Shown in pieces: positions 4,958 through 59,895 of a DNA stretch of 64,000 nt. Both the position numbers and the translations under genes were made by a program. Each line of letters begins with the position of its first letter. The first letter of the stretch is position 1. This DNA is from Spongiibacter nanhainus (lineage in GTDB: Bacteria > Pseudomonadota > Gammaproteobacteria > Pseudomonadales > Spongiibacteraceae). Location of the stretch: NCBI RefSeq assembly GCF_016132545.1, contig NZ_CP066167.1, positions 3,065,001-3,129,000 on the forward strand, given 5' to 3'. The notes beneath the pieces are model-generated. The model worked only from the letters and a program-made list of their open reading frames with translations, was not told where the DNA came from and did no database searches.

Positions 4958-5029
4958 ATTACGTATGACGCCATTGCTAGAGAAAGGCTGCAGCGATAGC
5001 CTGTGCCCTCAACCCTACGGAATGTCACC

Positions 5030-8609: not shown

Positions 8610-10694
8610 TTACTTGGCAGCGCGTTTCTCTTTCTCTTTGGCAATCACTTCCTCGGCAACATTGGCTGGGCAAGGCGCGTAGTGAGAGAACTCCATAGAG
8701 AACTGGCCACGACCTGAGGTCATCGTACGCAGGGTGCTGATATAACCAAACATTTCGGACAGTGGTACATCCGCTTTGATGCGTACGCCTGTTGCGTTGG
8801 GCTCTTGACCAGAGATCATACCGCGACGGCGGTTCAGGTCACCGATCACGTCACCGACGTTGTCTTCAGGGCTGAACACGTCCACTTTCATCACCGGCTC
8901 CAACAACTGAGCGCCAGCTTTAGGCATGGACTGACGGAAAGCGCCTTTGGCGGCGATCTCGAAGGCGACCGCCGAGGAGTCAACCGCGTGGTAGGCACCG
9001 TCATGCAGGTTGATAGCAACATCCAGAACCGGGAAGCCAGCCAGTGGGCCCTGCTCCATCATCGACTTGAAGCCCTTCTCAATAGCGGGGAAGAACTCCT
9101 TCGGTACGTTACCGCCGACAACCGTCGTGGTGAAGGTGAAGCCAGAGTTGGGCTCACCCGGCTCGATGGTGTAGTCGATTTTACCGAACTGACCAGAACC
9201 ACCGGACTGCTTCTTGTGGGTGTAGCTGTCTTCGATTTTCTGAGTGATGGTCTCGCGGTACGCAACCTGAGGCTGACCGACTTCCAGCTCAACACCATAG
9301 GTACGCTTAAGGATGTCGACTTTGATATCCAGGTGAAGCTCACCCATACCTTTGAGGATGGTCTCACCGGAGTCTTCGTCGGTCTCAACGCGGAAAGACG
9401 GATCTTCGGCAACCATCTTGCCGATCGCGATACCCATTTTCTCGGTGGAGCCCTTGTCCTTGGGCGTCACGGAGATAGAGATAACCGGATCCGGGAACAC
9501 CATGGCTTCCAGCGTACAGGGGTGATCCTGAGAACACAGAGTGTGACCGGTCTGTACGTTCTTCATACCGACGATAGCGATAATGTCACCCGCCGTCGCG
9601 TGGCTCAGTTCGTTGCGCTCATCGGCCTGCATTTCACACATACGACCAATACGCTCGGTCTTGCCGGTGAAGGAGTTAAGGATGGTGTCACCCTTGTTGA
9701 TTTGGCCTGAGTAAATCCGCACGAAAGTCAGGGCACCAAAGCGGTCGTCCATGATTTTGAACGCCAACGCGCGCAGTGGTTCGTCAGGAGAGACAATCGC
9801 GAATTCACCAGTCGGGTTACCTTCCTCGTCGGTCAGCGGCTGAGGATTCACCTCAGTGGGAGACGGCAGGTAGTCGACAACCGCGTCCAGCAACAGCTGC
9901 ATACCTTTATTCTTGAAGGCAGAACCACAGTAGGTGGGGAAGAAAGCCAGCTCCAGGGTACCCTTGCGGATACAGCGCTTGATGTCGTCGATGGAGGGCT
10001 CTTCACCTTCCATGTAGGCCATCATCAGGTCATCGTCCATTTCCACCGCGCTTTCAATCAATTGCTCGCGGTAAGTTTCGACCTGGTCCACCATATCGGC
10101 GGGAATGTCGGTAACTTCGTAATTTTCGGGCTGTCCGGTTTCATCCCATACGTAAGCTTTTTTGCTCAGCAGGTCGACCACGCCAGAGAATTCGTCTTCC
10201 CGGCCAATAGGCAGAGTCATGATCAGCGGGTTGGCACCCAGGACTTTTTTGACCTGCTCGGTCACGCGCAGGAAGTCAGCGCCAACACGGTCCAGCTTGT
10301 TAACGAAGATCAAGCGGGAGACTTTGGAGTCGTTGGCGTAGCGCCAGTTAGTCTCTGATTGGGGCTCAACGCCACCGGAACCACAGAATACACCGATACC
10401 GCCATCCAGGACTTTCAGTGAGCGGTAAACCTCTACTGTGAAGTCAACGTGCCCTGGGGTGTCGATGATGTTGAGACGATGGCCGTTCCACTCACAGGTA
10501 ACAGCAGCTGACTGAATGGTAATACCACGCTCAGCTTCCTGCTCCATGAAGTCAGTGGTAGATTCACCCTCGTGAACCTCACCGAGCTTGTGAATTTTAC
10601 CAGTGAGCTTGAGGACACGCTCAGTGGTAGTGGTTTTTCCGGCATCAACGTGGGCGAAAATACCGATGTTGCGGTACAAGGATAAGTCAGTCAC
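8610..10694 (-). CDS. Elongation factor G, stand-alone paralogue (EF-G2 type)
   Basis: This is a translational GTPase of 694 residues with the full EF-G domain series: the G domain with Ala-His-Val-Asp-Ala-Gly-Lys-Thr (P-loop, ~14-21), Arg-Gly-Ile-Thr-Ile, Asp-Thr-Pro-Gly-His and Asn-Lys-Leu-Asp, then domains II-V. The gene is monocistronic, with its own terminator and a ~600 bp upstream non-coding region. The canonical fusA is expected in the str operon (rpsL-rpsG-fusA-tuf), which usually precedes the S10 operon and so would lie past the right edge of this window. This copy is therefore probably a second EF-G. Its role (translocation, or a specialised function) is not decidable from sequence. 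Confidence 0.9.
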
Positions 10695-11235
10695 GGCGTT
10701 CTCTAAAATTAGGTGGGTTAAAATCGTGCGATACGATACTGGAAGTGGGAAAAAATTTCTCTCTTATTTTGCGTAATTATGCTAAAAGCGGCCTTTTTTT
10801 TGCCAAATTTCACAAAAAACCACCCCCTCTCCTTCACACAAGCCCCACCTTCGACCCACTCCCCGATGTAAAGAGCCCTCAACGAGGGATATGAAGAGCC
10901 TTCAGCGAGGAAGGTAAAGGAGCCTTCGGCGAGGAATATGAACAGCACTCAGCGAGGAAGATAAAGAACCCTCAGCAAGCTTACAGACGCGGCTAAAACA
11001 TGCCTCTTGCGGCGAAAACACCCTCAAAAAATCTCACAATACCCATATAAGTTAGATAGTTACCCTCATCTCACAAAGAAATAAGCGCTGAGATCAACAC
11101 TCAGTTGATGATCGTAACGACGAGTATTTGGCCACCCTCGCAACCCACCTACCACAGCCCTACAGAAAACACATAAATACCTATACTAATCAATAGCTTG
11201 CAACCCAGATAGCCGGGCCAGTTAAAACAAGGCTG
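10695..11235. other. Non-coding region between the EF-G gene and the zinc island
   Basis: This stretch holds the EF-G upstream region, an AT-rich segment and the tandem repeat at 10865-10980. A 76-codon minus frame (10718-10948) reads through the repeat and gives a repetitive Leu-Ala-Glu-Gly-Ser pattern; I regard it as non-coding. From 10981 to 11235 I see nothing beyond low-complexity AT-rich sequence. Confidence 0.5.
10865..10980. repeat. Degenerate ~24-bp tandem repeat, about five units
   Basis: Successive units share the core CCTTCAGCGAGGAA preceded by a variable TATGAAGAG/GTAAAGGAG-like stretch, at roughly 24-bp spacing. The units diverge at several positions each, so this is an old minisatellite-like array rather than a recent expansion. 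Confidence 0.75.
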
Positions 11236-11276
11236 TTGCCAGCCGAAAAAAACCCTTTTATGATATGTTATATCAT
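11236..11276 (+). promoter_or_regulatory. Promoter with overlapping Zur-box-like palindrome
   Basis: TTGCCA (11236-11241) and TATGAT (11259-11264) are 17 bp apart and resemble a sigma-70 promoter. Overlapping the -10 is ATGATATGTTATATCAT (11260-11276), a dyad with perfect 7-bp arms and the TGTTATA core seen in gammaproteobacterial Zur sites. Occupation by Zur would block the promoter. It precedes the dksA-like gene and a co-directional operon that includes zur, which fits autoregulated zinc repression. Confidence 0.65.
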
Positions 11277-11305
11277 TTCATAAACAAGGGGGCGATGTGC
11301 AATAA

Positions 11306-11746
11306 ATGGTGAACAGCTCTGATCTGGACTCGGGCACCTTCTCAGGGGTTATTCCCAAGCAGATTTTGCAACAGCCCTACATGAGTGAGCAGCAAATCGC
11401 TTTCTTTCGCCAGCGATTGCAAACGATGAGGGAGCACACCCTTGCCCGCATCCGCGCCGCACAACAATCGATGAGCGAACGCCCAGTACTGAGCGACAGC
11501 GCGGACCTGGCCCAATACGAGGAGGACTCCAGGATGACTCTCCGTACCGTCCAGCGGGAGAGCAAGCTGCTTCGAAAAATCGAGGCGTCACTGAAGCGTA
11601 TTCACACCGGCGACTACGGCTATTGCCTGGAGAGTGGCGAGCCCATCGGGATTGCCAGGCTGTTGATCCGTCCCACAGCAGAGTATTGCGCGGAGATAAA
11701 AAACCAGATGGAAGAAAGGGAAAAACACTATGGCAACTACCGCTAG
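11306..11746 (+). CDS. dksA2: DksA2-like transcription factor (zinc-site-deficient DksA paralogue)
   Basis: This 146-residue DksA/TraR family protein should bind RNA polymerase through its secondary channel with ppGpp. The coiled-coil tip retains acidic residues Asp64 and Asp67 (Ser-Asp-Ser-Ala-Asp). The C-terminal zinc-finger fold is present, but the four-Cys set is reduced to two: Cys107-x-x-Ser110 and Cys128-x-x-Ile131. Pseudomonas aeruginosa DksA2, which works without zinc and is made in zinc starvation, shows the same kind of two-cysteine pattern. It is first in the operon behind the Zur-like box, and its 3' end overlaps the COG0523 gene by 17 nt. ATG 11306 is used; Met26 (11381) is an alternative start. 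Confidence 0.88.
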   Translation: MVNSSDLDSGTFSGVIPKQILQQPYMSEQQIAFFRQRLQTMREHTLARIRAAQQSMSERPVLSDSADLAQYEEDSRMTLRTVQRESKLLRKIEASLKRIHTGDYGYCLESGEPIGIARLLIRPTAEYCAEIKNQMEEREKHYGNYR

Positions 11747-12941
11747 AAAACTGCCCGTTACCGTACTGTCAGGCTACCTCGGCGCGGGCAAAACCACTGT
11801 TCTGAGCCATGTGTTGAATAACCGGGACGGCCGCCGAGTGGCGGTCATCGTCAACGACATGAGCGAGATCAATATCGACGCCGCTGCGGTGCAGAACGAG
11901 GTGGCCTTGAATCGCAGCGAAGAAAAACTGGTGGAAATGAGCAACGGTTGTATCTGCTGCACTCTGCGGGAAGACCTACTTAAAGAAGTGCATCGCTTAG
12001 CAAAAGAAGGGCGCTTCGACTATCTGCTCATCGAATCTACAGGGATATCAGAGCCCTTACCGGTGGCGGAAACCTTCACTTTTGAAGACGAAAACGGCGA
12101 CAGCCTGTCGGACGTCGCCACCCTGGACACCATGGTAACCGTGGTTGATGCCGTCAACTTTCTTACCGACTACGATCAAGCCAAATTTTTGCGGGAAACC
12201 GGAGAACACCTCGGCGACGAGGATCAACGCAGCGTCGCGGACTTGTTGGTGGATCAGGTGGAATTTGCCGATGTCATCTTGGTTAGCAAAACAGACTTAG
12301 TGCACGAGATGGACGTGAAGCGGCTTATCGCCGTGTTGAGAACACTCAATACCGAAGCCGAAATAGTTCCTATACAGCTTGGCGAGGTAGATACAGGTCA
12401 AGTACTAGGCACCGGAAAATTTAGCTTTGAGAAAGCTCAGCTCTCCCCAGGTTGGCTCAAAGAGATGCGCGGGGAACATGTTCCAGAAACCGAGGAATAC
12501 GGGATTGGCAGCTTTACCTATACTGCTCGCCGCCCCTTTCACCCGGAGAAATTCTACAACTTCCTCCACAGTAACGACCTGCAAGGAAAGCTTATTCGCT
12601 CTAAGGGCTACTTCTGGCTTGCCAGCCGCCCTGAGTTCGCCGGCCAATGGAGCCAGGCCGGCGGCATGGCCCGCTATGGCTTTGCCGGTATGTTCTGGAA
12701 AGCCGTACCAAAAGACCGCTGGCCCGATGACGAGGAATACCTACAGTCCATAGCATCTAATTGGCAAGAGCCCTTCGGCGACATGCGCCAGGAGCTGGTA
12801 TTTATTGGTCAAAACCTGGATCAAAACCAGGTAACCCAGGCGCTGGACAGATGCTTGCTGAGTGACGAAGAGCTGCTGGCAGGTAAAGCACAGTGGCAAC
12901 GACTGCCCGACCCCTTCCCCGCCTGGGAGGCCGAAGCATGA
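11730..12941 (+). CDS. COG0523 GTPase, zinc metallochaperone (ZigA/YciC type)
   Basis: This G3E-family P-loop GTPase of 403 residues has Walker A Gly-Tyr-Leu-Gly-Ala-Gly-Lys-Thr-Thr (15-23), the signature metal motif Cys74-Ile-Cys-Cys77, a Glu-Ser-Thr-Gly switch region, Ser-Lys-Thr-Asp as guanine-specificity motif, and a C-terminal CobW_C domain (about 270-390). Zur-controlled members deliver zinc to client proteins during starvation. It overlaps the DksA2 gene by 17 nt and ends in an ATGA overlap with the DUF1826 gene, so the three are translationally coupled. The pairing of DksA2 with a COG0523 protein is known from Pseudomonas. Confidence 0.92.
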   Translation: MATTARKLPVTVLSGYLGAGKTTVLSHVLNNRDGRRVAVIVNDMSEINIDAAAVQNEVALNRSEEKLVEMSNGCICCTLREDLLKEVHRLAKEGRFDYLLIESTGISEPLPVAETFTFEDENGDSLSDVATLDTMVTVVDAVNFLTDYDQAKFLRETGEHLGDEDQRSVADLLVDQVEFADVILVSKTDLVHEMDVKRLIAVLRTLNTEAEIVPIQLGEVDTGQVLGTGKFSFEKAQLSPGWLKEMRGEHVPETEEYGIGSFTYTARRPFHPEKFYNFLHSNDLQGKLIRSKGYFWLASRPEFAGQWSQAGGMARYGFAGMFWKAVPKDRWPDDEEYLQSIASNWQEPFGDMRQELVFIGQNLDQNQVTQALDRCLLSDEELLAGKAQWQRLPDPFPAWEAEA

Positions 12942-13594
12942 TCCCCGCCCGCTCCCCGGACGCCGAGCTTTATCGTCACAGCGTTATCGGCCGCACGCCC
13001 GAGTCGCTCACCGATATCTACCGAGAGGACGTCAATATAGCGGTATGGCAGCGACAAGCTCCGCACCTGGCCCTTAGGGACGCTCAGGAGCTAGCCAAGA
13101 ATAGAAGTTTCAATGGTCTGCGCTGCGCCATACCCACCCAAAAACTCAGTCGGGTAGCAGACAGCCTATCGGAGATCTCCCCCTACCCCTACCTGCAAGC
13201 GGACGTGCAACTGCTGATAGAGATGTTCAGCTGCTTGTTTGAGCTGAAGGCGGTGGGCCTGAGATTGACGCCATTGAAAAACGCCATGTGTCCCAAATTC
13301 CATGTCGACCGGGTGCCTTGTCGGCTCATCACTACCTATCGCGGCCCTGCCACGCAGTGGCTGCCCCACCACTGCGTGGATCGCAGCAAGCTCGGCACTG
13401 GCAGCGCGGGCCTCAGTGATCAGGATAGCGGCTTATACCCCTCAGAGGCACACATCGAGACCTTAACGGCAGGCGACGTAGCCTTGCTTAAGGGCGAACT
13501 CTGGGAGGGCAACGAAGGTGCCGGCGCCGTGCACCGATCTCCCGCCGTGGAATCTGGCCATACACGCTTGCTCCTCACATTGGATTTTAGTTAA
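12938..13594 (+). CDS. DUF1826 domain protein
   Basis: This 218-residue protein matches the DUF1826 family, recognisable by Met-Cys-Pro-Lys-Phe-His-Val-Asp-Arg-Val-Pro-Cys-Arg-Leu-Ile-Thr-Thr-Tyr-Arg-Gly (about residues 109-128). The His-x-Asp arrangement in this motif may bind metal, but the activity is unknown. Family members commonly sit beside Zur-regulated COG0523 genes, as here. The start is ATG 12938, overlapping the COG0523 stop as ATGA with GGGAGG 8 bases upstream; the longer in-frame extension to 12893 is unlikely. No signal peptide is present, so it is probably cytosolic. Confidence 0.85.
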   Translation: MIPARSPDAELYRHSVIGRTPESLTDIYREDVNIAVWQRQAPHLALRDAQELAKNRSFNGLRCAIPTQKLSRVADSLSEISPYPYLQADVQLLIEMFSCLFELKAVGLRLTPLKNAMCPKFHVDRVPCRLITTYRGPATQWLPHHCVDRSKLGTGSAGLSDQDSGLYPSEAHIETLTAGDVALLKGELWEGNEGAGAVHRSPAVESGHTRLLLTLDFS

Positions 13595-13645
13595 CCACGC
13601 AGGCGAAGACCTGTTACCGAACAATTACCTTACTAGGAGACACCC

Positions 13646-16087
13646 ATGAAACGCAGCGCGAGCCTTCTCGCTTTGATAACGGCATCCGGACTGACCCATG
13701 CACTGTCCGGCCAAGTTAACGACGGATCGGGACACCCGGTCAGCGGCGCCAACACCGAAGTTGTCGGCAGCAAACTCAAAGCCAAAACCAACGCCCAGGG
13801 TCGCTTTACCCTGGACACTGGCGACCAACATGTCGATGAACTCCACATCGATGCACCGGGCTACAGCCACGAGACTCTGCGCATCGTCGATGACGACGAG
13901 GCGCTGCAAATCACCCTGCGGCGTACAGCTATTGAGCAAATTGACGTAACCGCAACCCCGTTTCACAGCTCGATCATGGAATCCGCACAACCGGTCACTG
14001 TGGTCGCCGGCGATGAGCTGCGCCGCAAACAGGCAGCGACATTGGGTGAAACCCTCAAAAACGAAGTGGGCGTCCACTCCAGCTATTTCGGCCCGGTAGC
14101 CAGCAGCCCTATTATCCGCGGTCTGAACGGCCCACGGGTGTTGATCACCCAAAATGGCTTGGATGTAAGCGATGCTTCACGAGTTGGCCCCGACCACGTG
14201 GTGGCCACAGAAGCGAGCACCGCTGAGCAAATTGAGATTTTGCGCGGCCCCGCAACGCTATTCTACGGCTCCGGTGCGATTGGCGGGGTCGTGAATGTGG
14301 TGGACGACCGGGTACCGTCCAACAGCGAGGCAAAAGGCGCCTTTAACGTCGGTCACAATACCGTGGCGGACGAATACGAGGCCTCCGCAGCCTACACCGG
14401 TGGTACCGACCACTTCGCGTTTCATATCGATGGTTTTTGGCGAGACGGAGACGACTACGACATTCCCGGTATCGCCGTGAACGAGACCGAGGAAGAGCAC
14501 GAAGAGGAAGGCCATGAAGAGCATGTCGACGGCACGTTGGAGAACAGCGCCTCAGAGAGCGAGGGCTTCAATATTGGCGGCAGCTGGCTGCTGGATAATG
14601 GCTTTGTCGGCATTTCCTACGGTCGACTAGAACGGTTGAATGGTGTGCCCGGCCACAGCCATGCCCACGACGAGGAACACGAAGAACACGAAGGTGAGGA
14701 CGAGCACGAAGACGAGCATGAAGATGAGCACGAGCATGAGCATGGCGAAGGCGGCGTACTCTCTGATCTGGAGCAGGATCGCTGGCAGTTAATCAGTGAG
14801 TTGTCATTGGACACCCCCCTGCTGCGCGGTATCCACACTCGCCTCGGCTACACCGACTATGAGCACGCCGAGGTAGAAAACGGCGAGGTCGGCACGGTAT
14901 TTCGCAACGAGACACTGCAGGCCCGAGTCGACCTGCTACTCCAAGAAATCGCTGGCTGGCATGGTGCCCTGTCTTTTGAGGGCAAAAGCTCGGATTTTGA
15001 GGCCACTGGCGAAGAGGCCTTTACCCCACCAAGCCGCACCGACAGTGTTGCCATTGCCCTAATGCAGGAAAAACACGTCGGTAAACTGCTATGGCAGATC
15101 GGTGCGCGGGTTGAGCAGGTCACTATTGAGGCGGATCCCATCGAGTGGGAAGAACACCACGCCGAAGAGGGAGAAGAGGCAGAGCACACTATGCTCCATT
15201 TTGACGAGATGGAGTTTACGCCCTTTAGCCTATCCGCCGGCCTGGTGTGGGACTTTGCTCACGATTACAACGCCGCGCTATCACTGACTCACGCGGAGCG
15301 GGCTCCCAGTGCGGCTGAGTTATTCTCTTATGGTCCCCACATTGGCACCGGGAGCTTCGAAGTTGGCGCCCTGTTTTGGCTCCACGAAGGCGAGCACCCC
15401 CACTTTCATTACAGCGACGATGTCGACGAGGAAGTATCCAACAACATCGACCTGAGTTTGCGCAAACATTCCGGCAACCTCAGCTGGGTGGTAAACGTGT
15501 TTTACAACCAAGTGGACAACTTCTACTACCAGCGCAATAGCGGCCTGACCAGCGAGGACTTCGAAGGTCATGACCACGGCGAAGACGACCACGAAGAGCA
15601 TGAAGAACACGAAGACCATGCTCACGACCACGGCGGCCTGCCGGTATACGTCTTCGAGCAGGCTGACGCCACGCTATATGGCCTCGAAGCTCAACTGGCC
15701 TGGCAGTTCGATCCAGCTTGGACTCTAAAGATATGGGGCGACAGCATTCGCGGCAAACTGGATGACGGCGGAAACCTGCCCCGCATTCCACCTGTGCGAG
15801 TGGGCAGCCAATTGCGCTACCAAAGCTATGGCTGGGAGGCTGAGCTCGGCGCGACCCACTATGCCGAACAGGGCAAGGTCGCAGAATTGGAAACGTCAAG
15901 CGATGCTTACACCCTGGTGGATGCCGAAGTGGCCTACACCTTTGCGGCGGATCGCGGCGATCTAACCGTCTACCTCAAAGGCGCCAACCTGACCGATGAG
16001 GAAGCCCGGGTGCATAGTTCCTTCCTCAAAGACAAGGCACCTCTACCCGGTAGAGGCTTTAGCATTGGCTTGCGAGGGCAATTTTGA
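13646..16087 (+). CDS. His-rich TonB-dependent outer-membrane receptor (zinc uptake, ZnuD-like)
   Basis: This 813-residue outer-membrane receptor has a signal peptide (about 1-20), a carboxypeptidase-regulatory-like domain (about 21-88), a plug (about 105-225, with Ile-Arg-Gly-Leu-Asn-Gly-Pro-Arg-Val and Leu-Arg-Gly-Pro-Ala-Thr-Leu-Phe-Tyr-Gly) and a beta-barrel ending in Phe. Three predicted extracellular loops are extremely His/Glu/Asp rich (about 285-305, 338-370, 640-665), as in neisserial ZnuD, and suit zinc capture. TAGGAGA lies 6-9 bases before the ATG. The position inside the Zur-type operon supports zinc as substrate; direct proof is absent. Confidence 0.9.
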   Translation: MKRSASLLALITASGLTHALSGQVNDGSGHPVSGANTEVVGSKLKAKTNAQGRFTLDTGDQHVDELHIDAPGYSHETLRIVDDDEALQITLRRTAIEQIDVTATPFHSSIMESAQPVTVVAGDELRRKQAATLGETLKNEVGVHSSYFGPVASSPIIRGLNGPRVLITQNGLDVSDASRVGPDHVVATEASTAEQIEILRGPATLFYGSGAIGGVVNVVDDRVPSNSEAKGAFNVGHNTVADEYEASAAYTGGTDHFAFHIDGFWRDGDDYDIPGIAVNETEEEHEEEGHEEHVDGTLENSASESEGFNIGGSWLLDNGFVGISYGRLERLNGVPGHSHAHDEEHEEHEGEDEHEDEHEDEHEHEHGEGGVLSDLEQDRWQLISELSLDTPLLRGIHTRLGYTDYEHAEVENGEVGTVFRNETLQARVDLLLQEIAGWHGALSFEGKSSDFEATGEEAFTPPSRTDSVAIALMQEKHVGKLLWQIGARVEQVTIEADPIEWEEHHAEEGEEAEHTMLHFDEMEFTPFSLSAGLVWDFAHDYNAALSLTHAERAPSAAELFSYGPHIGTGSFEVGALFWLHEGEHPHFHYSDDVDEEVSNNIDLSLRKHSGNLSWVVNVFYNQVDNFYYQRNSGLTSEDFEGHDHGEDDHEEHEEHEDHAHDHGGLPVYVFEQADATLYGLEAQLAWQFDPAWTLKIWGDSIRGKLDDGGNLPRIPPVRVGSQLRYQSYGWEAELGATHYAEQGKVAELETSSDAYTLVDAEVAYTFAADRGDLTVYLKGANLTDEEARVHSSFLKDKAPLPGRGFSIGLRGQF

Positions 16088-16147
16088 AAGCGCTGATTGG
16101 CCTACACCTGCCGCCCTCGGCAGGAAAACTTGCCGGAGAGTAGCACT

Positions 16148-16762
16148 GTGCTGTACACAGCAATGCGACACCTGTGGGCGATGGCCCTCGGCCTGAGCGT
16201 GAGCATAAGCGCCCATACGGCGCCTCTTTCGCCTGAGGCTGAACTTGAGGCAGAGCGACATCCTGGCCATGGCGGTCATAGCGCACATGTCCATGGCGTC
16301 GCTCGACTCCAGATAGTGTTGGAGGGTTCCCAACTCGACATTGCACTGCTCTCACCCGCGGCAAACCTTGTGGGTTTCGAGCATCGCCCGGAAACCGACG
16401 ATCAGCTTGCGATCGTCGCCCTCACCCATCGACGGCTGTCAGAGGGCGAGGTCCTCTTTCAAACCGAGCCGGCCAGTTGTCATCTGGCCGGCCACAGCAT
16501 CGACCTAAGCACTATCGACAAGCACGGCGAAGAGGAAAGCGAAGAACACCACAACGAGTCTCCGTCACACAGCAGCTCACATAGGGAAATCACCGCCCAA
16601 TACCGCTTTACCTGTGCCGAACCCGATGAGGTGCGGGCTTTGTCGACGACCTTAATGGCGCAGTTTCCCGGAATTCGCCATCTGCAGGTGCAATGGATCA
16701 GCGGTCATCGACAAGGGGCGGCAACACTGGATAATGGTCGCACTGGCGTAATCCTAAGGTAA
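16148..16762 (+). CDS. DUF2796 His-rich periplasmic protein (ZrgA-like)
   Basis: The product (204 aa from GTG 16148) has a signal peptide ending near Ala-His-Thr-Ala. A mature region starts with a His cluster (His-Pro-Gly-His-Gly-Gly-His-Ser-Ala-His-Val-His-Gly), followed by the DUF2796 core Val-Ala-Arg-Leu-Gln-Ile-Val-Leu-Glu-Gly...Asn-Leu-Val-Gly-Phe-Glu-His, and a second His/Glu cluster near the middle. As I recall, the DUF2796 protein ZrgA of Vibrio cholerae is a zinc-responsive component acting with an ABC system. GTG 16148 is chosen because GGAGAG lies 7 bases upstream; ATG 16163 is the alternative. It is 60 bp after the receptor gene. Confidence 0.87.
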   Translation: MLYTAMRHLWAMALGLSVSISAHTAPLSPEAELEAERHPGHGGHSAHVHGVARLQIVLEGSQLDIALLSPAANLVGFEHRPETDDQLAIVALTHRRLSEGEVLFQTEPASCHLAGHSIDLSTIDKHGEEESEEHHNESPSHSSSHREITAQYRFTCAEPDEVRALSTTLMAQFPGIRHLQVQWISGHRQGAATLDNGRTGVILR

Positions 16763-16767
16763 AGACC

Positions 16768-17220
16768 ATGAATAATATCGAGCAGATACTCAACCAAGCG
16801 GAAGCAAGTTGCCGCGCCAATGGTGGCAAATTGACCGAGAAGCGCAAGCGCATTCTGAGTGGTCTACTGCAATCCCAAAAAGCGCAATCCGCCTACGAGC
16901 TGATCGACTATATGCAGAAGGAGTTCGGGGTATCGCTACCGCCAACCACCGTCTATCGAATCCTAGACTTTTTGGCCAGCGAAAATCTCGTCCACAAGCT
17001 TCACTTGGCCAACAAGTACATTGCTTGCTCCCATATTACCTGCGACCACGCACACGAAGTGCCACAATTTCTGATTTGCGATGAATGCGGCACGGTAAAA
17101 GAAATCGGCATCAAGAAAACCCTGATCAACACTCTGGAAAGCAATGTAAAACAGGCCGGCTATGTCCTTAAAAGCCCGCAGCTTGAGCTGCACTGCCTGT
17201 GTGATAGCTGCGCGCACTGA
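16768..17220 (+). CDS. zur: Zinc uptake regulator Zur (Fur family)
   Basis: This 150-residue Fur-family repressor has an N-terminal winged helix (about 20-85, with Pro-Pro-Thr-Thr-Val-Tyr-Arg-Ile-Leu-Asp-Phe-Leu). The dimerisation/metal domain carries Cys-Ser-His...Cys-Asp-His-Ala-His, a structural Cys-Asp-Glu-Cys pair, and Cys-Leu-Cys-Asp-Ser-Cys near the C-terminus. Gene context (COG0523, DksA2, His-rich transport proteins) assigns it to Zur rather than Fur. It starts 5 bp after the DUF2796 stop, so it is probably cotranscribed and negatively autoregulated through the box at 11260-11276. Confidence 0.9.
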   Translation: MNNIEQILNQAEASCRANGGKLTEKRKRILSGLLQSQKAQSAYELIDYMQKEFGVSLPPTTVYRILDFLASENLVHKLHLANKYIACSHITCDHAHEVPQFLICDECGTVKEIGIKKTLINTLESNVKQAGYVLKSPQLELHCLCDSCAH

Positions 17221-17246
17221 GAGTGTTACCACAAGTAGGAGGTAGC

Positions 17247-17675
17247 GTGAATTCAGCAACACGTCGTATGGACAAAGCGGCAATCGGACTGTCCCTAGTG
17301 TGTACCGTGCACTGTTTGTTACTGCCGGTATTACTAGTGATGCTGCCCACCCTCGGCGGCACCGCCCTGGGCGATGAGCGCTTTCACCAATGGCTTTTGT
17401 TTGCGGTATTGCCACTTAGCATTTTCGCGCTATCCATTGGTTGTCACCGACACAAGCAAAAGGTTATTTTGCTGCTGGGCCTGTTGGGCATGGCAGCGCT
17501 GACATTCGCGGCACTGCTGGGGCACGACCTACTAGGAGAAATCGGCGAGAAGGTGGTCTCTGTACTGGGGGCTTCGCTCATTGCTCTCGGTCACTGGGGC
17601 AACCACAGATTGTGCCAACGCTTAGACGGTCGCTGTGATCATAAAGTCTTTTCAGACTGCCAGTCGGAGGAATAG
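17247..17675 (+). CDS. MerC-like inner-membrane protein
   Basis: This is a 142-residue MerC-domain protein with four predicted hydrophobic helices and Cys-Thr-Val-His-Cys in the first, the cysteine pair used for metal in MerC. The C-terminus is Cys/His-containing (Leu-Cys-Gln...Cys-Asp-His...Asp-Cys). The true start is most likely GTG 17247, directly behind AGGAGG (17237-17242); the longer frame from 17223 lacks a ribosome site. No other mer gene is nearby, and its place after zur suggests transport or binding of zinc rather than mercury. Confidence 0.83.
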   Translation: MNSATRRMDKAAIGLSLVCTVHCLLLPVLLVMLPTLGGTALGDERFHQWLLFAVLPLSIFALSIGCHRHKQKVILLLGLLGMAALTFAALLGHDLLGEIGEKVVSVLGASLIALGHWGNHRLCQRLDGRCDHKVFSDCQSEE

Positions 17676-17678
17676 GAC

Positions 17679-17732
17679 ATGAACCGCGATGACACCACTG
17701 CACGGTATACCCACAAGACGCCATGCGATTAA
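17679..17732 (+). CDS. Possible 17-aa peptide between the merC-like gene and hisI
   Basis: ATG 17679 to TAA 17730-17732 encodes 17 residues (ends His-Lys-Thr-Pro-Cys-Asp). It follows a good ribosome site (GGAGGAATAGG, 17667-17677) immediately after the MerC-like stop. It may be a leader peptide, or the ribosome site of a decayed gene start. No homology claim is possible. Confidence 0.25.
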   Translation: MNRDDTTARYTHKTPCD

Positions 17733-17768
17733 TGGCCGTGCATAGTGCATAAATAGGCTTACCCATCC

Positions 17769-18203
17769 GTGATTAATCAATTCTTCCAGTCCCTCGAGTC
17801 CCGCCAGGCAGGCGAGTCACTGCCCTTGGAAGAGGTAATGAGTCACTTGATGTTTAATTCTAGCGGGCTTATCCCCGTCGTGACGCAAGATCAAGCGAGC
17901 CGGGAGGTGTTAATGATGGCTTGGATGAATCGCGACGCCATCGATGCGACCTTGCGTTCAGGTACCATGACTTATTGGTCCCGTTCACGATCACAGTTGT
18001 GGCGCAAAGGCGAAACCAGCGGCCACGTTCAGCACTTACAATCAATGCGCATTGATTGCGATGGCGACGCCCTGTTATGCGAGGTGCAGCAGTGCGGCCC
18101 GGCCTGCCATACCCAGCGTTCAAGCTGTTTTTACCTGGGCGTCGATCCCGCTTCCCGGTTGGTTACCATTACTGAGTCGCCGCCGATCACGGGCGAAATT
18201 TAG
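17769..18203 (+). CDS. hisI: Phosphoribosyl-AMP cyclohydrolase paralogue
   Basis: HisI opens the ring of phosphoribosyl-AMP in histidine synthesis and needs zinc. Conserved elements are Gly-Leu-Ile-Pro-Val-Val-Thr-Gln-Asp, Met-Ala-Trp-Met-Asn-Arg-Asp-Ala, Tyr-Trp-Ser-Arg-Ser-Arg, Leu-Trp-Arg-Lys-Gly-Glu, Arg-Ile-Asp-Cys-Asp-Gly-Asp-Ala-Leu-Leu and Ala-Cys-His-Thr...Ser-Cys-Phe-Tyr, so the metal Cys/Asp ligands are present. GTG 17769 gives 144 aa; ATG 17838 (GGAAGAGG just upstream) gives 121 aa, closer to the usual HisI core. No other his gene is nearby. HisI copies in Zur-type loci are regarded as starvation paralogues of the main HisI. Confidence 0.87.
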   Translation: MINQFFQSLESRQAGESLPLEEVMSHLMFNSSGLIPVVTQDQASREVLMMAWMNRDAIDATLRSGTMTYWSRSRSQLWRKGETSGHVQHLQSMRIDCDGDALLCEVQQCGPACHTQRSSCFYLGVDPASRLVTITESPPITGEI

Positions 18204-18275
18204 GTGCCACCGTCCTGGACCATTCACCAATAGCTACTACTCACCCTTAACTACTACATCCGGAGTCGTCGATTT

Positions 18276-19271
18276 ATGGCCGCGCTGAAATCCATCCCCA
18301 CCAATGTGATTACCGGCTTTCTCGGTGTGGGCAAGTCGACGGCAATCCTGCATTTGCTCAAACACAAGCCGGAGCACGAGCGCTGGGCCGTGTTGGTCAA
18401 TGAATTTGGCGAAGTGGGCATTGATGGCAGTCTATTCGCCGGCCAGCAAACTGAAGACGCTGGCATTTTCATCCGCGAAGTTCCCGGCGGATGTATGTGC
18501 TGCACGGCAGGACTGCCAATGCAAATAGCTCTGAACATGCTGCTGTCCAGGGCAAAGCCGCATCGCTTGCTGATAGAACCTACTGGCCTGGGCCATCCTG
18601 AAGAAGTGCTGGCGGTGTTGGCCTCTGACTACTACCGGGAGGTCCTCGACCTGCGTGCCACTCTGACCCTGGTCGACGCCCGCAAAATCCAAGATTCCCG
18701 TTACACTCAGCACGACACTTTTAACCAGCAGCTGGCCATCGCTGACGTTATTGTCGCCAACAAATCAGAGCAGTACGGGGCGAGAGATTTTCCCGCTTTA
18801 CTGGATTTTCTGGAAGGCAGGCTGAGCCTGGACAGTAAATCGGTCTATCAGGTCAGTAATGGCGCAGTGCAAAACCAGTGGTTACAGGCCCCTACAGCGC
18901 AGTCGCCACACCCGCTCCACCAACACCAAAGCGAAGCCCCGCCACCGATCATCAATACCGGTGATATCCCTGAGCAGGGCTACCTGAGTATCGATAATGA
19001 GGGCGAAGGTTTCCACAGCCGGGGATGGGTATTTAAACCCCAGTGGACTTTCTCTGCCGACAAACTCTATAACCTACTGCTGGGTGTCGAAGCCGAGCGC
19101 ATCAAGGGGGTGTTTATTACTGACCAAGGCATCGCTGCTTACAACAAAGCCGATAATGTACTCAGCCAAACCGAACTGGACGACTGCCTGGATAGCCGCA
19201 TCGAATGCATCAGTACCGATACCGCGGCCCTTGAAAATCTAGAGCAAGCCCTACTCGACTGTGTGATCTAG
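18276..19271 (+). CDS. Second COG0523 GTPase (CobW/YeiR-like metallochaperone)
   Basis: This 331-residue G3E GTPase is distinct from the copy at 11730. Walker A is Gly-Phe-Leu-Gly-Val-Gly-Lys-Ser-Thr (14-22), the metal motif is Cys73-Met-Cys-Cys76, followed by Glu-Pro-Thr-Gly-Leu-Gly-His-Pro, and Ala-Asn-Lys-Ser-Glu replaces the usual NKxD. A His-rich linker (His-Pro-Leu-His-Gln-His-Gln) precedes a CobW_C-type domain. The replacement of the guanine-specificity Asp by Glu is worth noting. It is the last gene of the island's plus-strand run, ending inside the hairpin at 19268-19310. Confidence 0.9.
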   Translation: MAALKSIPTNVITGFLGVGKSTAILHLLKHKPEHERWAVLVNEFGEVGIDGSLFAGQQTEDAGIFIREVPGGCMCCTAGLPMQIALNMLLSRAKPHRLLIEPTGLGHPEEVLAVLASDYYREVLDLRATLTLVDARKIQDSRYTQHDTFNQQLAIADVIVANKSEQYGARDFPALLDFLEGRLSLDSKSVYQVSNGAVQNQWLQAPTAQSPHPLHQHQSEAPPPIINTGDIPEQGYLSIDNEGEGFHSRGWVFKPQWTFSADKLYNLLLGVEAERIKGVFITDQGIAAYNKADNVLSQTELDDCLDSRIECISTDTAALENLEQALLDCVI

Positions 19272-19310
19272 GGAACCTCTGCATAAGCTGGTAATGCAGA
19301 GGTTCCCTAG
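19268..19310. terminator. Perfect 17-bp inverted repeat between convergent genes
   Basis: CTAGGGAACCTCTGCAT (19268-19284) pairs perfectly with 19294-19310 around a 9-base loop. The TAG stop of the COG0523 gene (19269-19271) and the TAG of the DUF3299 gene (19307-19309) lie at the two bases of the stem. It probably acts as a bidirectional terminator, although it has no T-tract on either side. Confidence 0.6.
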
Positions 19311-19918
19311 TCGTCATATGGCTCAATGCTCTCCACCTTCACGGCATATGCAGCCGTGGCAGTCTCGTTTTCAATAAGGGTCGTCCGTAGTTTGCCAGAA
19401 ATCCAAAATGGGTCGTACAAGGACTCGAGCTTAAAGCCTTGGTCAAATTCCGCATAGGTAATTTGATTGGGGGGAGGTGGTGGCACGTGGATACAAGCGC
19501 CGAAGTAAGGTACCAGAAAAAATCGGGTCACCTGTTGGTCGCCGTCGCCGAACTCCAATGGCACGATAAAGCCCGGCAGGCGAATTGCCTGACCATCAAA
19601 CTCTTTGACCACTCGGGTCGAGACCAGGGCCCGCTGATAGGCGCTATCACCGGCGGGCTCCAGTTCTGTTTGGAACTGGCTGTCAATTTGATCCTGCTCA
19701 GAACCATCGGCAATCTCATTGAGGGATTCGGGAGGGTTAAGAAAAGCGTCCAAATCCTCCTTGGGCATCAGGTCGGTCCACTCGATGGTTCGATAGCCAT
19801 CGACAGCCCTGCCGCTGGCATCTGCGCTCTGGACAATACTGCTTGCTGTCATTACCAGTAACAACACTAGCGACTGGCCTGCAACGCGGGCCATCCTTAA
19901 GGGGTTTAGACGCATCAA
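19307..19918 (-). CDS. DUF3299 exported protein
   Basis: This 203-residue protein has an N-terminal signal peptide (hydrophobic core about 13-28, cleavage near Gln-Ser-Ala-Asp). The DUF3299 hallmark is clear: Leu-Pro-Gly-Phe-Ile-Val-Pro-Leu-Glu and Phe-Phe-Leu-Val-Pro-Tyr-Phe-Gly-Ala-Cys-Ile-His-Val-Pro-Pro-Pro-Pro-Pro-Asn, with a Cys and His that could bind metal. DUF3299 genes often accompany LolD/FtsX-like ABC genes and DUF2796 proteins in Zur regulons, and here it is divergent from such an ABC pair. The biochemical role is unknown; periplasmic metal handling is inferred. Confidence 0.85.
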   Translation of the reverse strand: MMRLNPLRMARVAGQSLVLLLVMTASSIVQSADASGRAVDGYRTIEWTDLMPKEDLDAFLNPPESLNEIADGSEQDQIDSQFQTELEPAGDSAYQRALVSTRVVKEFDGQAIRLPGFIVPLEFGDGDQQVTRFFLVPYFGACIHVPPPPPNQITYAEFDQGFKLESLYDPFWISGKLRTTLIENETATAAYAVKVESIEPYDD

Positions 19919-19987
19919 AGCTCACTCCAAATAGGGGCTTAGAATGAAAAAAAGTCACCAAGGTTCCATGTCGCGCTGTACCATTTA

Positions 19988-20052
19988 GAATCGATCGATT
20001 CCCAGGCAATCACGAGAACATACTGTGATAGTTAACGTTGAGAACATGCTGT
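19988..20052. promoter_or_regulatory. Palindrome and direct repeats between DUF3299 and ABC genes
   Basis: GAATCGATCGATTC (19988-20001) is a perfect 14-bp palindrome. A 13-bp direct repeat, GAGAACATACTGT (20014-20026) and GAGAACATGCTGT (20040-20052), straddles the ABC ATPase start codon at 26-bp spacing. These may bind regulators of the divergent genes. No Zur-like dyad is visible here. Confidence 0.35.
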
Positions 20053-20693
20053 TTTCTTACGACAAAACCAGCTCACCGCTGCTGGATATTCCGCAATGGA
20101 CTCTGGACAACGCAGAACAGGTATTTCTGCATGGGCCGTCAGGGAGTGGCAAGTCCACATTCCTCAACATACTGGCAGGCATTCTGCTACCCAATCGCGG
20201 CTGTGTCGACATCCTTGGGCAGCGCATTAATGGGCTGCGCAGCGGCAAACGGGATAAATGGAGGGCCCGGCATATTGGCGTTGTATTTCAACAGTTCAAC
20301 CTTATCCCCTACCTGAGCCCTGTGGACAACATCAGACTGGCCGCCCATTTTGCCAACACCCCTAATGCTAGCCGGGAGGCATCGAAACTGCTGACATCGC
20401 TGAGTATCGACGGCGAACTCTGCCATCGCCCTGCATCGCAATTGAGCGTCGGACAGCAGCAGCGGGTTGCCATTGCCCGGGCGCTGATCAATCGTCCAGA
20501 ACTGATCATTGTCGACGAGCCCACCTCGGCGCTAGATGCACAAAATCGCGATGGGTTTATATCGCTGTTGATGGACAGCGTTCAGCAAAGTGGAGCTGCC
20601 CTACTGTTTGTCAGTCACGATTTATCCCTGTCGACGCACTTTCACAGAGTGGATGCCCTGGGCAAGATCAACCGCGCGGGAGAAACGGCCTGA
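20025..20693 (+). CDS. ABC transporter ATP-binding protein (LolD/MacB-type, ZrgB-like)
   Basis: This 222-residue ATPase has Walker A Gly-Pro-Ser-Gly-Ser-Gly-Lys-Ser-Thr, Q-loop Phe-Gln-Gln-Phe-Asn-Leu-Ile, signature Leu-Ser-Val-Gly-Gln-Gln-Gln-Arg-Val-Ala, Walker B Leu-Ile-Ile-Val-Asp-Glu-Pro-Thr and the Ser-His-Asp switch. It uses a GTG start (20025). Its stop overlaps the permease start (ATGA-type coupling at 20693), so the pair forms one transporter. Subfamily resemblance is to FtsE/LolD/MacB ATPases, whose partners are mechanotransmission permeases rather than channels. Context suggests zinc-linked function like the Vibrio Zrg system. Confidence 0.9.
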   Translation: MIVNVENMLFSYDKTSSPLLDIPQWTLDNAEQVFLHGPSGSGKSTFLNILAGILLPNRGCVDILGQRINGLRSGKRDKWRARHIGVVFQQFNLIPYLSPVDNIRLAAHFANTPNASREASKLLTSLSIDGELCHRPASQLSVGQQQRVAIARALINRPELIIVDEPTSALDAQNRDGFISLLMDSVQQSGAALLFVSHDLSLSTHFHRVDALGKINRAGETA

Positions 20694-21988
20694 TGTTTAT
20701 ACACTTGGCGCTGCGAAGTCTTTGGAGCCGTAAAGGCTCTGTGCTGCTCACTTTTTTTGCCATTACGGTCAGTGTATTTGTGCTTCTAGGCGTGGAGACC
20801 ATCCGTCACCAGGCCAAGAGCAGCTTTAACAATACCGTATCGGGCATCGACCTGATCGTGGGTGCCCGAACAGGCGATGTGAATTTATTGTTGTATTCGG
20901 TCTTTCGTCTGGGTAACGCCACCAATAATATTAGCTGGCAAAGCTATCAGGCCATCGCCAATGACCCCAAAGTGGCGTGGACTATCCCCCTCTCCCTGGG
21001 GGACTCCCATAAAGGCTACCGGGTGATGGGTACCACCGACGAGTACTTCCAGCACTTTCGCTATGGCGGTGACCGTGCTTTGGTCTTGGCTCAGGGTAAA
21101 GCCTTTAGGGATACCTTTGACATTGTTCTGGGCAGCGCCGTCGCCCGCGCATTGGGCTATCAACTAGGGGACAAGATAGTGCTGGCGCATGGTCTCGGCA
21201 GCACCAGCTTCAGTAAGCATGAAGACTCCCCTTTCGAGGTGGTAGGGATACTCCAAACCACCGGCACACCAGTCGATCAGACCCTGCATGTGAGCCTGGC
21301 AGGTATTGAAGCCATTCATGCGGGTTGGCCGTCTGGGTCTCCAACCAGTAGCTACCCATCAACCGATCAACATTCCTCCCATCAGCATACTCACTCTCAG
21401 GCCGCGAGCGCGGACCAACATGAGACACACCACGAGGAGAATCCGGATGCCATCACTGCGTTTATGGTGGGGCTAACATCCAAGTTGGCGACATTTCAAA
21501 TGCAACGCCAGATCAACACCTATTCCGGGGAAGCCCTGCTGGCCATTCTCCCCGGCGTCACCATTAGCCAACTCTGGCAGATGATGGCAGTGATGGAACA
21601 CACACTGCAGCTAATTGCGGCACTAGTATTGCTTGCCTCGCTGCTGGGCCTGGCGGCGATGCTACTGGCGACACTTCGCGAGCGCGGGCCGGAAATCGCC
21701 GTGATGCGAGCCATTGGCGCATCGCCCCTGTTTGTCTTTGCACTGCTGGAAGTGGAAGCCATCATCATCAGCCTGGCCTCCTGCGTACTGGCGGCCCTAT
21801 TGCTCACGGTTGGCGCCTCGCTGTCGGCCGACTGGTTAGCGGCACAATTCAGCTTAGTGATGGATTCGGGACCCATTTTGAATAGCGGCTCAGCTTTGAT
21901 TCTGGGTTTGGTGCTGGCGGCCACCATCATTATTACCCTGGTACCGGGCATACAGGCTTACCGCTACGCGCTTAGGGAGCAATTGTAG
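20693..21988 (+). CDS. FtsX/MacB-type ABC permease with His-rich periplasmic loop
   Basis: This 431-residue permease has one N-terminal transmembrane helix (about 17-37), a large periplasmic domain (about 40-300) and a C-terminal three-helix FtsX block (about 305-425), the four-helix layout of LolC/MacB-like proteins. The periplasmic domain contains an insert dense in His (about 220-250: His-Ser-Ser-His-Gln-His-Thr-His...His-Glu-Thr-His-His), not usual for Lol proteins and pointing to metal. It is coupled to the upstream ATPase by overlapping stop and start codons. Confidence 0.88.
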   Translation: MFIHLALRSLWSRKGSVLLTFFAITVSVFVLLGVETIRHQAKSSFNNTVSGIDLIVGARTGDVNLLLYSVFRLGNATNNISWQSYQAIANDPKVAWTIPLSLGDSHKGYRVMGTTDEYFQHFRYGGDRALVLAQGKAFRDTFDIVLGSAVARALGYQLGDKIVLAHGLGSTSFSKHEDSPFEVVGILQTTGTPVDQTLHVSLAGIEAIHAGWPSGSPTSSYPSTDQHSSHQHTHSQAASADQHETHHEENPDAITAFMVGLTSKLATFQMQRQINTYSGEALLAILPGVTISQLWQMMAVMEHTLQLIAALVLLASLLGLAAMLLATLRERGPEIAVMRAIGASPLFVFALLEVEAIIISLASCVLAALLLTVGASLSADWLAAQFSLVMDSGPILNSGSALILGLVLAATIIITLVPGIQAYRYALREQL

Positions 21989-22029
21989 ACAAGGGGGTGG
22001 CAAACCCGGGTGCGGCCTGCTCAAGGTAA

Positions 22030-22058
22030 TTAATCGATTAAGTAGTTGTTATGCTACT
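22030..22058. promoter_or_regulatory. Palindromes upstream of the TetR gene
   Basis: TTAATCGATTAA (22030-22041) is a perfect 12-bp palindrome, and AGTAG-N8-CTACT follows (22041-22058). TetR proteins usually bind such dyads in their own upstream region. The AATCGAT core also occurs in the palindrome at 19988-20001. Confidence 0.35.
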
Positions 22059-22160
22059 ATCTGCTTCAGTAATGACGTCGACGAGAGCTATTTGCCCTGA
22101 GGTTCAGTGCGCCTTTTCCCATAATTGCCATTCAACGCGACCACGACATAAGCAGACACC

Positions 22161-22805
22161 ATGACCGATTCAGCGACTTCCGCTACGGCGGGCAAAAAGC
22201 AGCGGCGCAACTCCCGCGCTGCGTTGATGCAGGCCGCCAGTGAAATACTGATTCAACGCAATACGATCGATATTTCCCTCAGCGATATTGCCGAGCACTC
22301 GGGTTTGAACTCGGCACTGATCAAGTATCATTTTGGCAATAAAAACGGGCTGCTACTGGCGCTGGTAGAACGGGACGCGGGGCCGAGTATGGAAAAACTC
22401 AAGGCCCTGTCAGAACAAGACACCCCCCCTAAAGAAAAACTGCGGATGCACATCGCCGGTGTGATCCACACCTACGCCAAATGCCCCTATCTCAATCGCC
22501 TCGTTCATACCTTGATGGAAAATGGCAACGATGAGATTGCGCAGGAATTGGTGGACTTCTTCGTTAAACCCATCCTTAACGCCCAACAGCGCATCGTTGA
22601 GCAGGGTGTTGAACTCGGCATTTTCAAGCCCGTCGACCCCATGATGTTTTACTATTTACTGATCGGCGCCTGTGATTATATTTTTTACGCCCGCCACTCC
22701 CGTCGTTTTATGAGCGGGCAGCCCGACCTCAGCCAAGCCATGCGCAATCAGTACATCGACTTTGTTACCGAGAGTGCCATCAAAATACTGACCGCCGACG
22801 ACTAA
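22161..22805 (+). CDS. TetR-family transcriptional regulator
   Basis: This 214-residue TetR repressor has an N-terminal helix-turn-helix (about 17-65) containing Ile-Ser-Leu-Ser-Asp-Ile-Ala-Glu-His-Ser-Gly-Leu-Asn-Ser-Ala-Leu-Ile-Lys-Tyr-His-Phe and an all-helical ligand/dimer domain. Length is typical and the ligand unknown. It lies 172 bp after the ABC permease gene on the same strand, separated by palindromes that may be its operator, so it is probably a separate unit. Confidence 0.88.
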   Translation: MTDSATSATAGKKQRRNSRAALMQAASEILIQRNTIDISLSDIAEHSGLNSALIKYHFGNKNGLLLALVERDAGPSMEKLKALSEQDTPPKEKLRMHIAGVIHTYAKCPYLNRLVHTLMENGNDEIAQELVDFFVKPILNAQQRIVEQGVELGIFKPVDPMMFYYLLIGACDYIFYARHSRRFMSGQPDLSQAMRNQYIDFVTESAIKILTADD

Positions 22806-59382: not shown

Positions 59383-59895
59383 TTAGCCCAGGATCTCTTC
59401 TACCGATTTGCCGCGCTTTGCTGCGACTTCATCTGGAGAAGAAATGCTTTGCAGTGCTTTGATGGTAGCGCGAACCACGTTCACCGGATTGGTAGAGCCG
59501 TAGCACTTAGCCAAAACGTTGTGAACACCGGCAATTTCCAGCACCGCACGCATCGCACCACCGGCGATTACACCAGTACCATCAGACGCAGGCTGCATGT
59601 AAACCTTGGATGCACCGTGGTTAGCTTTAACCGCGTACTGAATCGTATCACCCTTGATATCCACCTGAACCATGTTGCGACGGGCGGACTCCATGGCCTT
59701 CTGGATAGCGACGGGCACTTCGCGAGCCTTGCCGCGGCCAAAACCGACCTTACCGTTACCATCACCAACCACCGTCAGCGCGGTAAAGCTGAAGATCCGG
59801 CCACCTTTAACTACTTTGGCAACACGATTTACCTGTACCAGTTTTTCCTGGAGGCCTTCTGTGTTTGCGTTGTCTTTCTGCTCGTTGAATGCCAT
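59383..59895 (-). CDS. rpsE: 30S ribosomal protein S5
   Basis: This 170-residue S5 has the N-terminal dsRNA-binding-like domain ([12 protein letters not shown]) and Gly-Arg-Gly-Lys-Ala-Arg-Glu-Val-Pro. It contributes to decoding accuracy. Confidence 0.97.

Follow-up and report, generated by a model that had tools for sequence, protein, structure and literature searches.

The window considered here is a 64,000-nucleotide stretch of the Spongiibacter nanhainus genome (positions 3065001-3129000 of a single contig of 4,078,570 bases). At 11306-19271 of the window, nine genes of the plus strand, dksA2-zigA-DUF1826-receptor-zrgA-zur2-merC-hisI-cobW2, follow one another behind a predicted operator for the zinc uptake regulator Zur, and one of the nine encodes a Zur-type repressor. 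We regard it as probable that these genes form one operon, that zinc-loaded Zur represses it as two dimers placed over the -10 box of the promoter, and that a second Zur is encoded within the repressed unit. Very probably, as far as its sequence tells, the operon is switched on in zinc shortage. The initial annotation of this DNA had described the unit as carrying its own zur. A repressor gene does lie inside it, but the gene is, judged by its sequence, a second and divergent paralogue, which has no published name and is labelled Zur2 here; the canonical zur (product Zur1) is located elsewhere, beside znuC and in divergent orientation to znuA, and has a box of its own at 59569.

The candidate sigma-70 promoter, TTGCCA-17-TATGAT at 11236-11264 on the plus strand, was found by consensus scan. 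Such a scan of 10500-20500 gives 5 sites against 6.0 expected in shuffled sequences, which is not above chance, and the promoter is considered credible because the operator overlaps its -10 box. The predicted operator, TGATATGTTATATCATTTCA at 11261-11280, shows 0 mismatches to the structure-based two-dimer IUPAC motif of E. coli Zur, TGWNAYRWTATAWYRTNWCA (PMC4219657), a test independent of our own matrix. It consists of two overlapping predicted dimer sites 5 bp apart, the 17-mers 11260-11276 and 11265-11281. No other locus of the genome has two or fewer mismatches to the motif, and the canonical znu site has three. The Zur-like dyad that had been proposed over the -10 box is thus borne out. 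With up to three mismatches allowed, the genome holds 31 matches versus 27 per strand in a reversed-pattern control; since this is barely above the control, a wider Zur regulon is not claimed. One three-mismatch match that was inspected, at genome position 2992482, falls within an open reading frame (ORF). The 17-mer of the window is also found upstream of homologous clusters. In P. aeruginosa, a 17-nt palindrome bound by Zur likewise overlaps the -10 box (PMC8531726).

The nine ORFs of the operon are separated by at most 93 bp (17675/17769) and overlap at two junctions. All nine consecutive plus-strand genes described in the initial annotation were found, and their family assignments were upheld by Pfam and NCBIfam profiles. 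It is probable that these genes, mostly of zinc-starvation families, form one transcription unit. Its end likely lies at a perfect 16-bp inverted repeat at 19269-19309 (arms 19269-19284 and 19294-19309; -32.8 kcal/mol, fold z -7.35), which spans the stop codons of two convergent genes and is not followed by a T run. That zur2 and the distal genes instead have promoters of their own seems quite improbable to us. A weak promoter-like site does precede zur2 at 16708-16735, a Zur-type site stands directly before zur2 in some relatives (loci L104, L153, L158 and L166), and in one genome of the genus (G293; L096:8909-10573) dksA2-zigA is separate from the Zrg locus and is preceded by the exact operator 17-mer of the window. 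Against separate promoters stand the short gaps, the chance-level frequency of promoter-like sites and a scan in which no further Zur-type site came up within the operon.

The first gene, at 11306-11746, encodes a DksA2-like protein (PF21157, PF01258), whose translation may begin at the ATG at 11381. Two of its four finger cysteines are gone (CLES..CAEI), and the other DksA of the genome is of the C4 type, with the finger CDTC..CIDC, a pairing that qualifies the window protein as a DksA2. ZigA, a COG0523 zinc metallochaperone GTPase (11730-12941), scores 699.7 bits with NF038288, above the cut-off of 600. It is followed by a DUF1826 protein of uncertain start (12893-13594; PF08856, 204.7 bits) and by a TonB-dependent receptor with His-rich loops and an N-terminal CarboxypepD_reg domain (13646-16087; PF07715, PF00593, PF13620). 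The nearest NCBIfam model of the receptor is ZnuD (NF038289), at 416 bits under a cut-off of 950, and it is called ZnuD-like only. The His-rich ZrgA (DUF2796) at 16097-16762 reaches 161 bits with PF10986 (cut-off 27.4), and likely starts at the ATG at 16163, with a signal-peptide-like N-terminus. Zur2 is encoded at 16768-17220 (PF01475, 53.6 bits, cut-off 23.1), the MerC-like membrane protein at 17223-17675 (PF03203, 99.9 bits, cut-off 27.6), and a paralogue of HisI, phosphoribosyl-AMP cyclohydrolase, at 17769-18203 (PF01502; NF000768, 160.3 bits, cut-off 126); the genome holds another HisI besides this copy. The last gene, at 18276-19271, encodes a second COG0523 GTPase, CobW2, with a CMCC motif (PF02492, 144.8 bits) and without a CobW_C match in the profile search. 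Like the receptor, DksA2 (112.2 against a cut-off of 115.5) and ZrgA (104.6 against 185 with the ZrgA model NF047873) score below the NCBIfam equivalog cut-offs; these names, and that of Zur, are therefore given by similarity, while ZigA and HisI pass theirs.

The label 'MerC-like' is used because this copy sits in a zinc locus, and a reading as a mercury-resistance gene was dropped on gene context alone. An alignment of 38 sequences shows C27, H30, C31, H55, H77 and H124 to be invariant, which would suit a metal-handling membrane protein. The AlphaFold model of the protein is mediocre (predicted local distance difference test score 69.6) and was left unused; Foldseek returned 0 matches at E<=0.001, the best being human ZnT7 at E 0.35.

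Three further genes adjoin the operon: a zrgE homologue (DUF3299) on the minus strand at 19307-19918 (PF11736, 156.6 bits), and, on the plus strand, a ZrgC-type ATP-binding cassette (ABC) ATPase at 20025-20693 (PF00005, 108.1 bits), a gene with a recurrent position between zrgE and zrgB, and a ZrgB-type MacB/FtsX permease at 20693-21988 with matches to PF12704 (MacB_PCD) and PF02687 (FtsX). The permease carries a His-rich loop (HQHTHSQAASADQHETHHEE). The nine-gene set stands as a unit of about 8 kb, as the initial annotation had it, but it is part of a larger locus that includes zrgE and zrgC-zrgB. In V. parahaemolyticus, DUF3299 is ZrgE, and ZrgABCDE of Vibrio is described as a Zur-repressed zinc uptake system whose zrgA mutant grows poorly at low zinc (PMC9817125). 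The window locus likewise joins DUF2796, an ABC ATPase, a permease and DUF3299, which places it with ZrgABCDE; unlike in the Vibrio system as described there, zrgA is one of the genes of the zur2 operon, and zrgE and zrgCB are arranged divergently. A DUF2607 protein (ZrgD) was not noticed among the ORFs of at least 70 aa at 9000-21500, a range in which no dedicated search for it was made.

The direction of transport bears on another reading, in which the Zrg part is an exporter: a MacB-type ZrgBC would expel a metallophore or its cobalt complex instead of importing zinc, and the locus would combine zinc uptake with metallophore recycling. We take this as a serious possibility, a little short of an even chance. 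The P. aeruginosa homologue PA4063-PA4066 has been argued to export pyochelin-cobalt, with stress on the MacB fold (PMC11481552), and the window ZrgB matches both MacB_PCD and FtsX. The low-zinc phenotype of the Vibrio zrgA mutant argues against export, and no metallophore gene was noticed in the ORF lists, in which no search was aimed at one.

To our knowledge, Zur is usually treated as a single regulator in each genome. The present genome contains three genes of the FUR family: one of Fur type by its best match (143 bits), the gene in the window and the canonical zur. In Zur2, all eight zinc ligands of E. coli Zur are kept, those of site A as C104/C107/C145/C148 and those of site B as H76/C87/H96/E112, and Y43 and R64 occupy the places of the base-contacting Tyr45 and Arg65 (PMC4219657; structure chain 4mtd). 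The likeness to the E. coli Zur/znuABC operator system therefore covers the ligands, the base contacts and an operator without mismatch; Zur2 differs from E. coli Zur in that its segment after C87 is one residue longer, with extra Cys/His. The reading frame of zur2 is intact.

A tree of 140 rows and 149 columns contains one branch that parts a Zur2 side (104 rows) from a Zur1 side (32 rows), with a Shimodaira-Hasegawa-like approximate likelihood-ratio support of 99; four rows, both query proteins among them, are unlabelled, and the program gives a warning that two long branches meet at this split. It should be mentioned that each row was labelled by its better tblastn query, hence the tree is a consistency test and not a blind one. 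Extra Cys/His after C87 are present in most Zur2 rows (89 of 104), and the strict pattern CxHxxCxHxH occurs in 89 of the 104 Zur2-side rows and in none of the 32 on the Zur1 side. As a clade, the strict label is rejected (approximately unbiased (AU) test, p 1.4e-46), and Zur2 is therefore defined by the tree. Zur2 matches of at least 100 bits occur in 82 of the 293 genomes of the order, and the weakest of these matches were not all placed in the tree. Zur1 is found at E 1e-25 or less in 141, and in 12 of 12 genomes sampled in the genus. Both occur together in 17 genomes of the order, compared to 39.5 expected, a figure uncorrected for kinship. For 65 of the 82 genomes with Zur2, the search for Zur1 gave nothing that passed E 1e-25, so that Zur2 may be their sole Zur. 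In two genomes of the genus, G123 and G232 (L077, L078), an additional Zur2-like gene, of 56-57% identity, is located in the vicinity of a receptor gene, which gives each of them three Zur-type genes.

Loci with and without zur2 can be compared within the genus. The Zrg permease is present in 8 of 18 genomes, and six of these eight loci (the window, G212, G123, G232, G192 and G293) have zur2 after zrgA. In G063 and G148, the order is DUF1826-receptor-zrgA-merC-(hisI, in G148 only)-cobW2-zrgE (reverse)-zrgC-zrgB; zur2 is missing, merely 49-55 bp separate the zrgA and merC matches, and the loci (L243:5160-13742 and L244:8473-16454) are also without the dksA2-zigA head. Elsewhere in these two genomes, a search for Zur2 at 1e-12 gives no more than a weak match of Zur1 strength, and Zur1 is present in both. 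Their operator reads ATGATATGTTATAACAT and that of the window ATGATATGTTATATCAT, a one-base difference in the 17-mer. By gene order, zur2 appears to be a separable piece of the locus, compatible with gain as well as loss. The idea that the locus is a cassette invariably accompanied by its own repressor was given up, as it occurs without zur2 in these two genomes. Comparison of G063 and G148 with the zur2 loci is a natural experiment on which Zur acts.

The operators of Zur1 and Zur2 genomes were also compared. After 10 of 80 named Zur2 loci were dropped for having less than 3.5 kb upstream, 70 were scanned with our own matrix, and 56 of them, not all independent, show a site above 14 bits upstream, compared to 0 of 70 in reversed sequence. 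For Zur1, 30 loci were taken (best matches, 12 from the genus), of which 24 have a site above 9 bits and 6 were dropped. With thresholds that differ between the two sets and an orientation rule that favours G at position 8 in both, G occupies position 8 in 44 of 56 Zur2 sites versus 0 of 24 Zur1 sites; at position 4, A is found in 84% of the Zur2 sites and T in 83% of the Zur1 sites, and at position 14, T is found in 55% of the Zur2 sites versus 0 of 24 Zur1 sites. The form ending in TATCAT, ATGATATGTTRTATCAT, occurs in 24 of the 293 genomes, each of them one of the 82 that have Zur2; the wider pattern ATGATATGTTRTAWCAT occurs in 33, namely 27 with Zur2 and six with Zur1 only. The separation of the two operator types thus appears partial and not strict.

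These comparisons bear on the alternative that Zur1 controls the operon here and in the relatives, with Zur2 redundant, decaying, or sensing another metal or a different zinc set point and acting elsewhere. We consider it unlikely. The confinement of the TATCAT form to Zur2 genomes in the sample speaks against it, as do the intact zur2 frame with all ligands and base contacts kept and the 65 Zur2 genomes in which no Zur1 match passes the threshold. In its favour, G063 and G148 have Zur1 as their only Zur, one skeleton, RNNNYRNNRYNNYRNNNY, covers the sites of both the operon and znu, and the extra Cys/His found after C87 in most Zur2 rows could alter sensing.

Several observations weigh against our preferred reading of a zinc-starvation operon under its own Zur2. 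In G063 and G148, a comparable operon behind an almost unchanged operator is retained with Zur1 as the sole Zur, from which it follows that Zur1 can probably run the locus. The six Zur1-only genomes with the wider pattern all read ATGATATGTTATAACAT, and therefore position 8 alone cannot tell Zur1 from Zur2 sites. The best NCBIfam model of Zur2 is Zur NF008646, at 93.3 bits against a cut-off of 167; this genome's canonical Zur1, at 109.4, falls short as well, which makes this model look narrow. No recognisable Zur operator is present in the zrgE/zrgC gap at 19919-20024, where the best site has 2.5 bits, whereas in the seven other genus loci this gap holds an operator-like site scoring 12.7 to 16.8 bits; Zrg may therefore be uncoupled from Zur in the window genome. 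Finally, the zinc sparing that had been proposed for the operon does not apply to HisI, in which the cysteines, residues that bind metal, are retained.

Whether the locus is anything beyond a known type has also to be considered. Haas et al. in 2009 described Zur-regulated COG0523 (yciC) clusters of beta- and gamma-proteobacteria in which zur, zinc transporters and HisI and DksA paralogues are jointly represented, and a figure legend there names DUF1826 and an outer-membrane protein (PMC2770081). The collection is therefore not new in kind, and the unusual character ascribed to it by the initial annotation was overstated, although all nine genes together are found in none of the 80 named Zur2 loci and in none of seven other genus loci. 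In two Zhongshania loci among the 80, the receptor alone is missing from the nine. The window differs from the clusters as described by Haas et al. in that a second Zur is linked to MerC and Zrg and the canonical zur has a separate location; as whole words, 'MerC', 'two Zur' and 'paralogs of Zur' are absent from the main text of that article. In P. aeruginosa, PA5534-PA5536 (DUF1826, zigA and dksA2) belong to the Zur regulon (PMC9431628), and the same three genes are adjacent in the window; unlike in the window, the further P. aeruginosa genes in that account are amiA, folE2 and cam, and zur lies with znuCB (PA5499-PA5501). Zur encoded in an operon is autoregulated in known cases (PMC6103462). 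In a literature search within one library, for two-Zur genomes or for MerC or mercury in connection with Zur, none of the titles listed described such a system, and an Idiomarina genome note names 'zur1, zur2' without comment in the part seen (PMC5347250).

In relatives, the gene order of the window was found in part. Among the first 20 loci of the order, 11 have zrgA-zur2, a reverse-oriented zrgE and zrgC-zrgB in this succession, in many cases with merC, hisI and cobW2 interposed, and two more have these genes rearranged. The dksA2-zigA-DUF1826 head is present in three of four other genus loci among the 20 and also in other families (L083, L099). Neighbours were counted within 7.5 kb of zur2 in the 56 of 80 named loci that have more than 6 kb on either side: CobW2 in 34, MerC in 32, ZrgA in 28, ZrgE in 27, ZrgC, ZrgB and DUF1826 in 24 each, ZigA in 18, HisI in 14, the receptor in 7 and DksA2 in 5, with zrgA, B, C and E jointly near zur2 in 22. 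From these gene orders, the long operon of the window looks like modules gathered under one promoter. The named relatives are mostly Gammaproteobacteria, many of them marine by name.

In a tree built by a quick method from five concatenated cluster proteins (31 rows), the window groups with G212, G123 and G232 (support 95), and G192 falls outside a group that includes Halieaceae; a single clade for the five genus rows is rejected (AU p 0.018). Horizontal transfer of the locus is suggested, and by its distribution the locus is accessory in the genus. G+C content is 51-58% in 2-kb windows, and composition gives no hint of recent acquisition. The locus might also be an ordinary Zur-regulated cluster of the 2009 type, with zur2 present by chance and a content that varies through ordinary loss. 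To this we give appreciable weight, still well below even. The published clusters, PA5534-PA5536, the grouping of four of the five genus rows and the unremarkable G+C content agree with it, and it has to contend with the retention of canonical zur-znu in the same genome, the presence of the Zrg permease in 8 of 18 genus genomes against Zur1 in 12 of 12 sampled, and the position of G192.

In the mechanism that we propose, zinc-loaded Zur, as two dimers over the -10 box, would keep the promoter shut, and a drop in cytoplasmic zinc would release it from the operator and turn the operon on. Zinc uptake would then be raised by the outer-membrane receptor and the periplasmic zinc binder ZrgA, with zrgE and zrgC-zrgB completing the Zrg ABC system. 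The two COG0523 GTPases, ZigA and CobW2, would allocate zinc; DksA2, without two finger cysteines, would replace the zinc-dependent DksA; the additional HisI would raise the HisI dose, and the MerC-like membrane protein would also be made. More Zur2 would be produced, closing a negative feedback loop. The genes, the match of the operator, the conserved ligands, the tree with its two branches, the recurrent gene order, the operator types and the occurrence of zur2 in some but not all of the otherwise comparable genus loci are established by computation; co-transcription, the response to zinc, the Zur that binds and the direction of Zrg transport are each what we infer in this scheme. Most likely, Zur2 serves the window locus and Zur1 serves znuABC, with possible overlap between them.

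More tentatively, and with clearly less confidence than in the operon itself, zur2 could be an insertable control module between zrgA and merC of an accessory locus, with a slightly different operator and probably a zinc set point of its own, that would take control from Zur1 and thereby divide the zinc response into two stages; where zur2 is missing, the operator would be shifted by one base and Zur1 would act alone, and the MerC-like protein would be a hitherto unrecognised membrane component of zinc starvation. Two paralogous repressors in one genome, and sister loci with and without the second, make the division of one metal signal directly testable, and the one-base operator difference makes it testable which base decides. 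DUF1826, DUF3299 and the MerC-like protein also gain a testable functional setting. If Zur1 and Zur2 prove interchangeable, the locus would be a well-stocked but ordinary Zur operon.

Some observations concern mobile elements and the surroundings of the locus. The conjugative plasmid pREC1 of Acaryochloris marina (L241) carries a Zur2-like gene (48.6% identity) directly after zigA; three more genes of repressor or Fur type lie no more than about 5 kb away. Plasmid records with a Zur2 match number 116, all below 60% identity, and 110 are typed as non-mobilizable. An Rfam scan of 10600-22200 returned nothing at the gathering threshold. Upstream of the operon, the window contains a gene for elongation factor G (EF-G; 8610-10694), one of two in the genome, the other being 55% identical at genome position 3134526. 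The upstream EF-G has an orthologue of at least 87% identity in 17 of the 18 genus genomes, its own included. In seven other EF-G regions of the genus, no other window neighbour lies beside EF-G except for one 25% LysR match, and therefore no empty insertion site can be defined in the regions examined; nor are the window's neighbours shared by the clusters of G212, G123 and G192. About 9 kb upstream of the operon lies an ISL3-family transposase (699-1892). Bacterial 3-hydroxy-3-methylglutaryl-coenzyme A reductase is uncommon in Gammaproteobacteria, and a gene for it is located at 5003-6208 of the window (PF00368, 402 bits).

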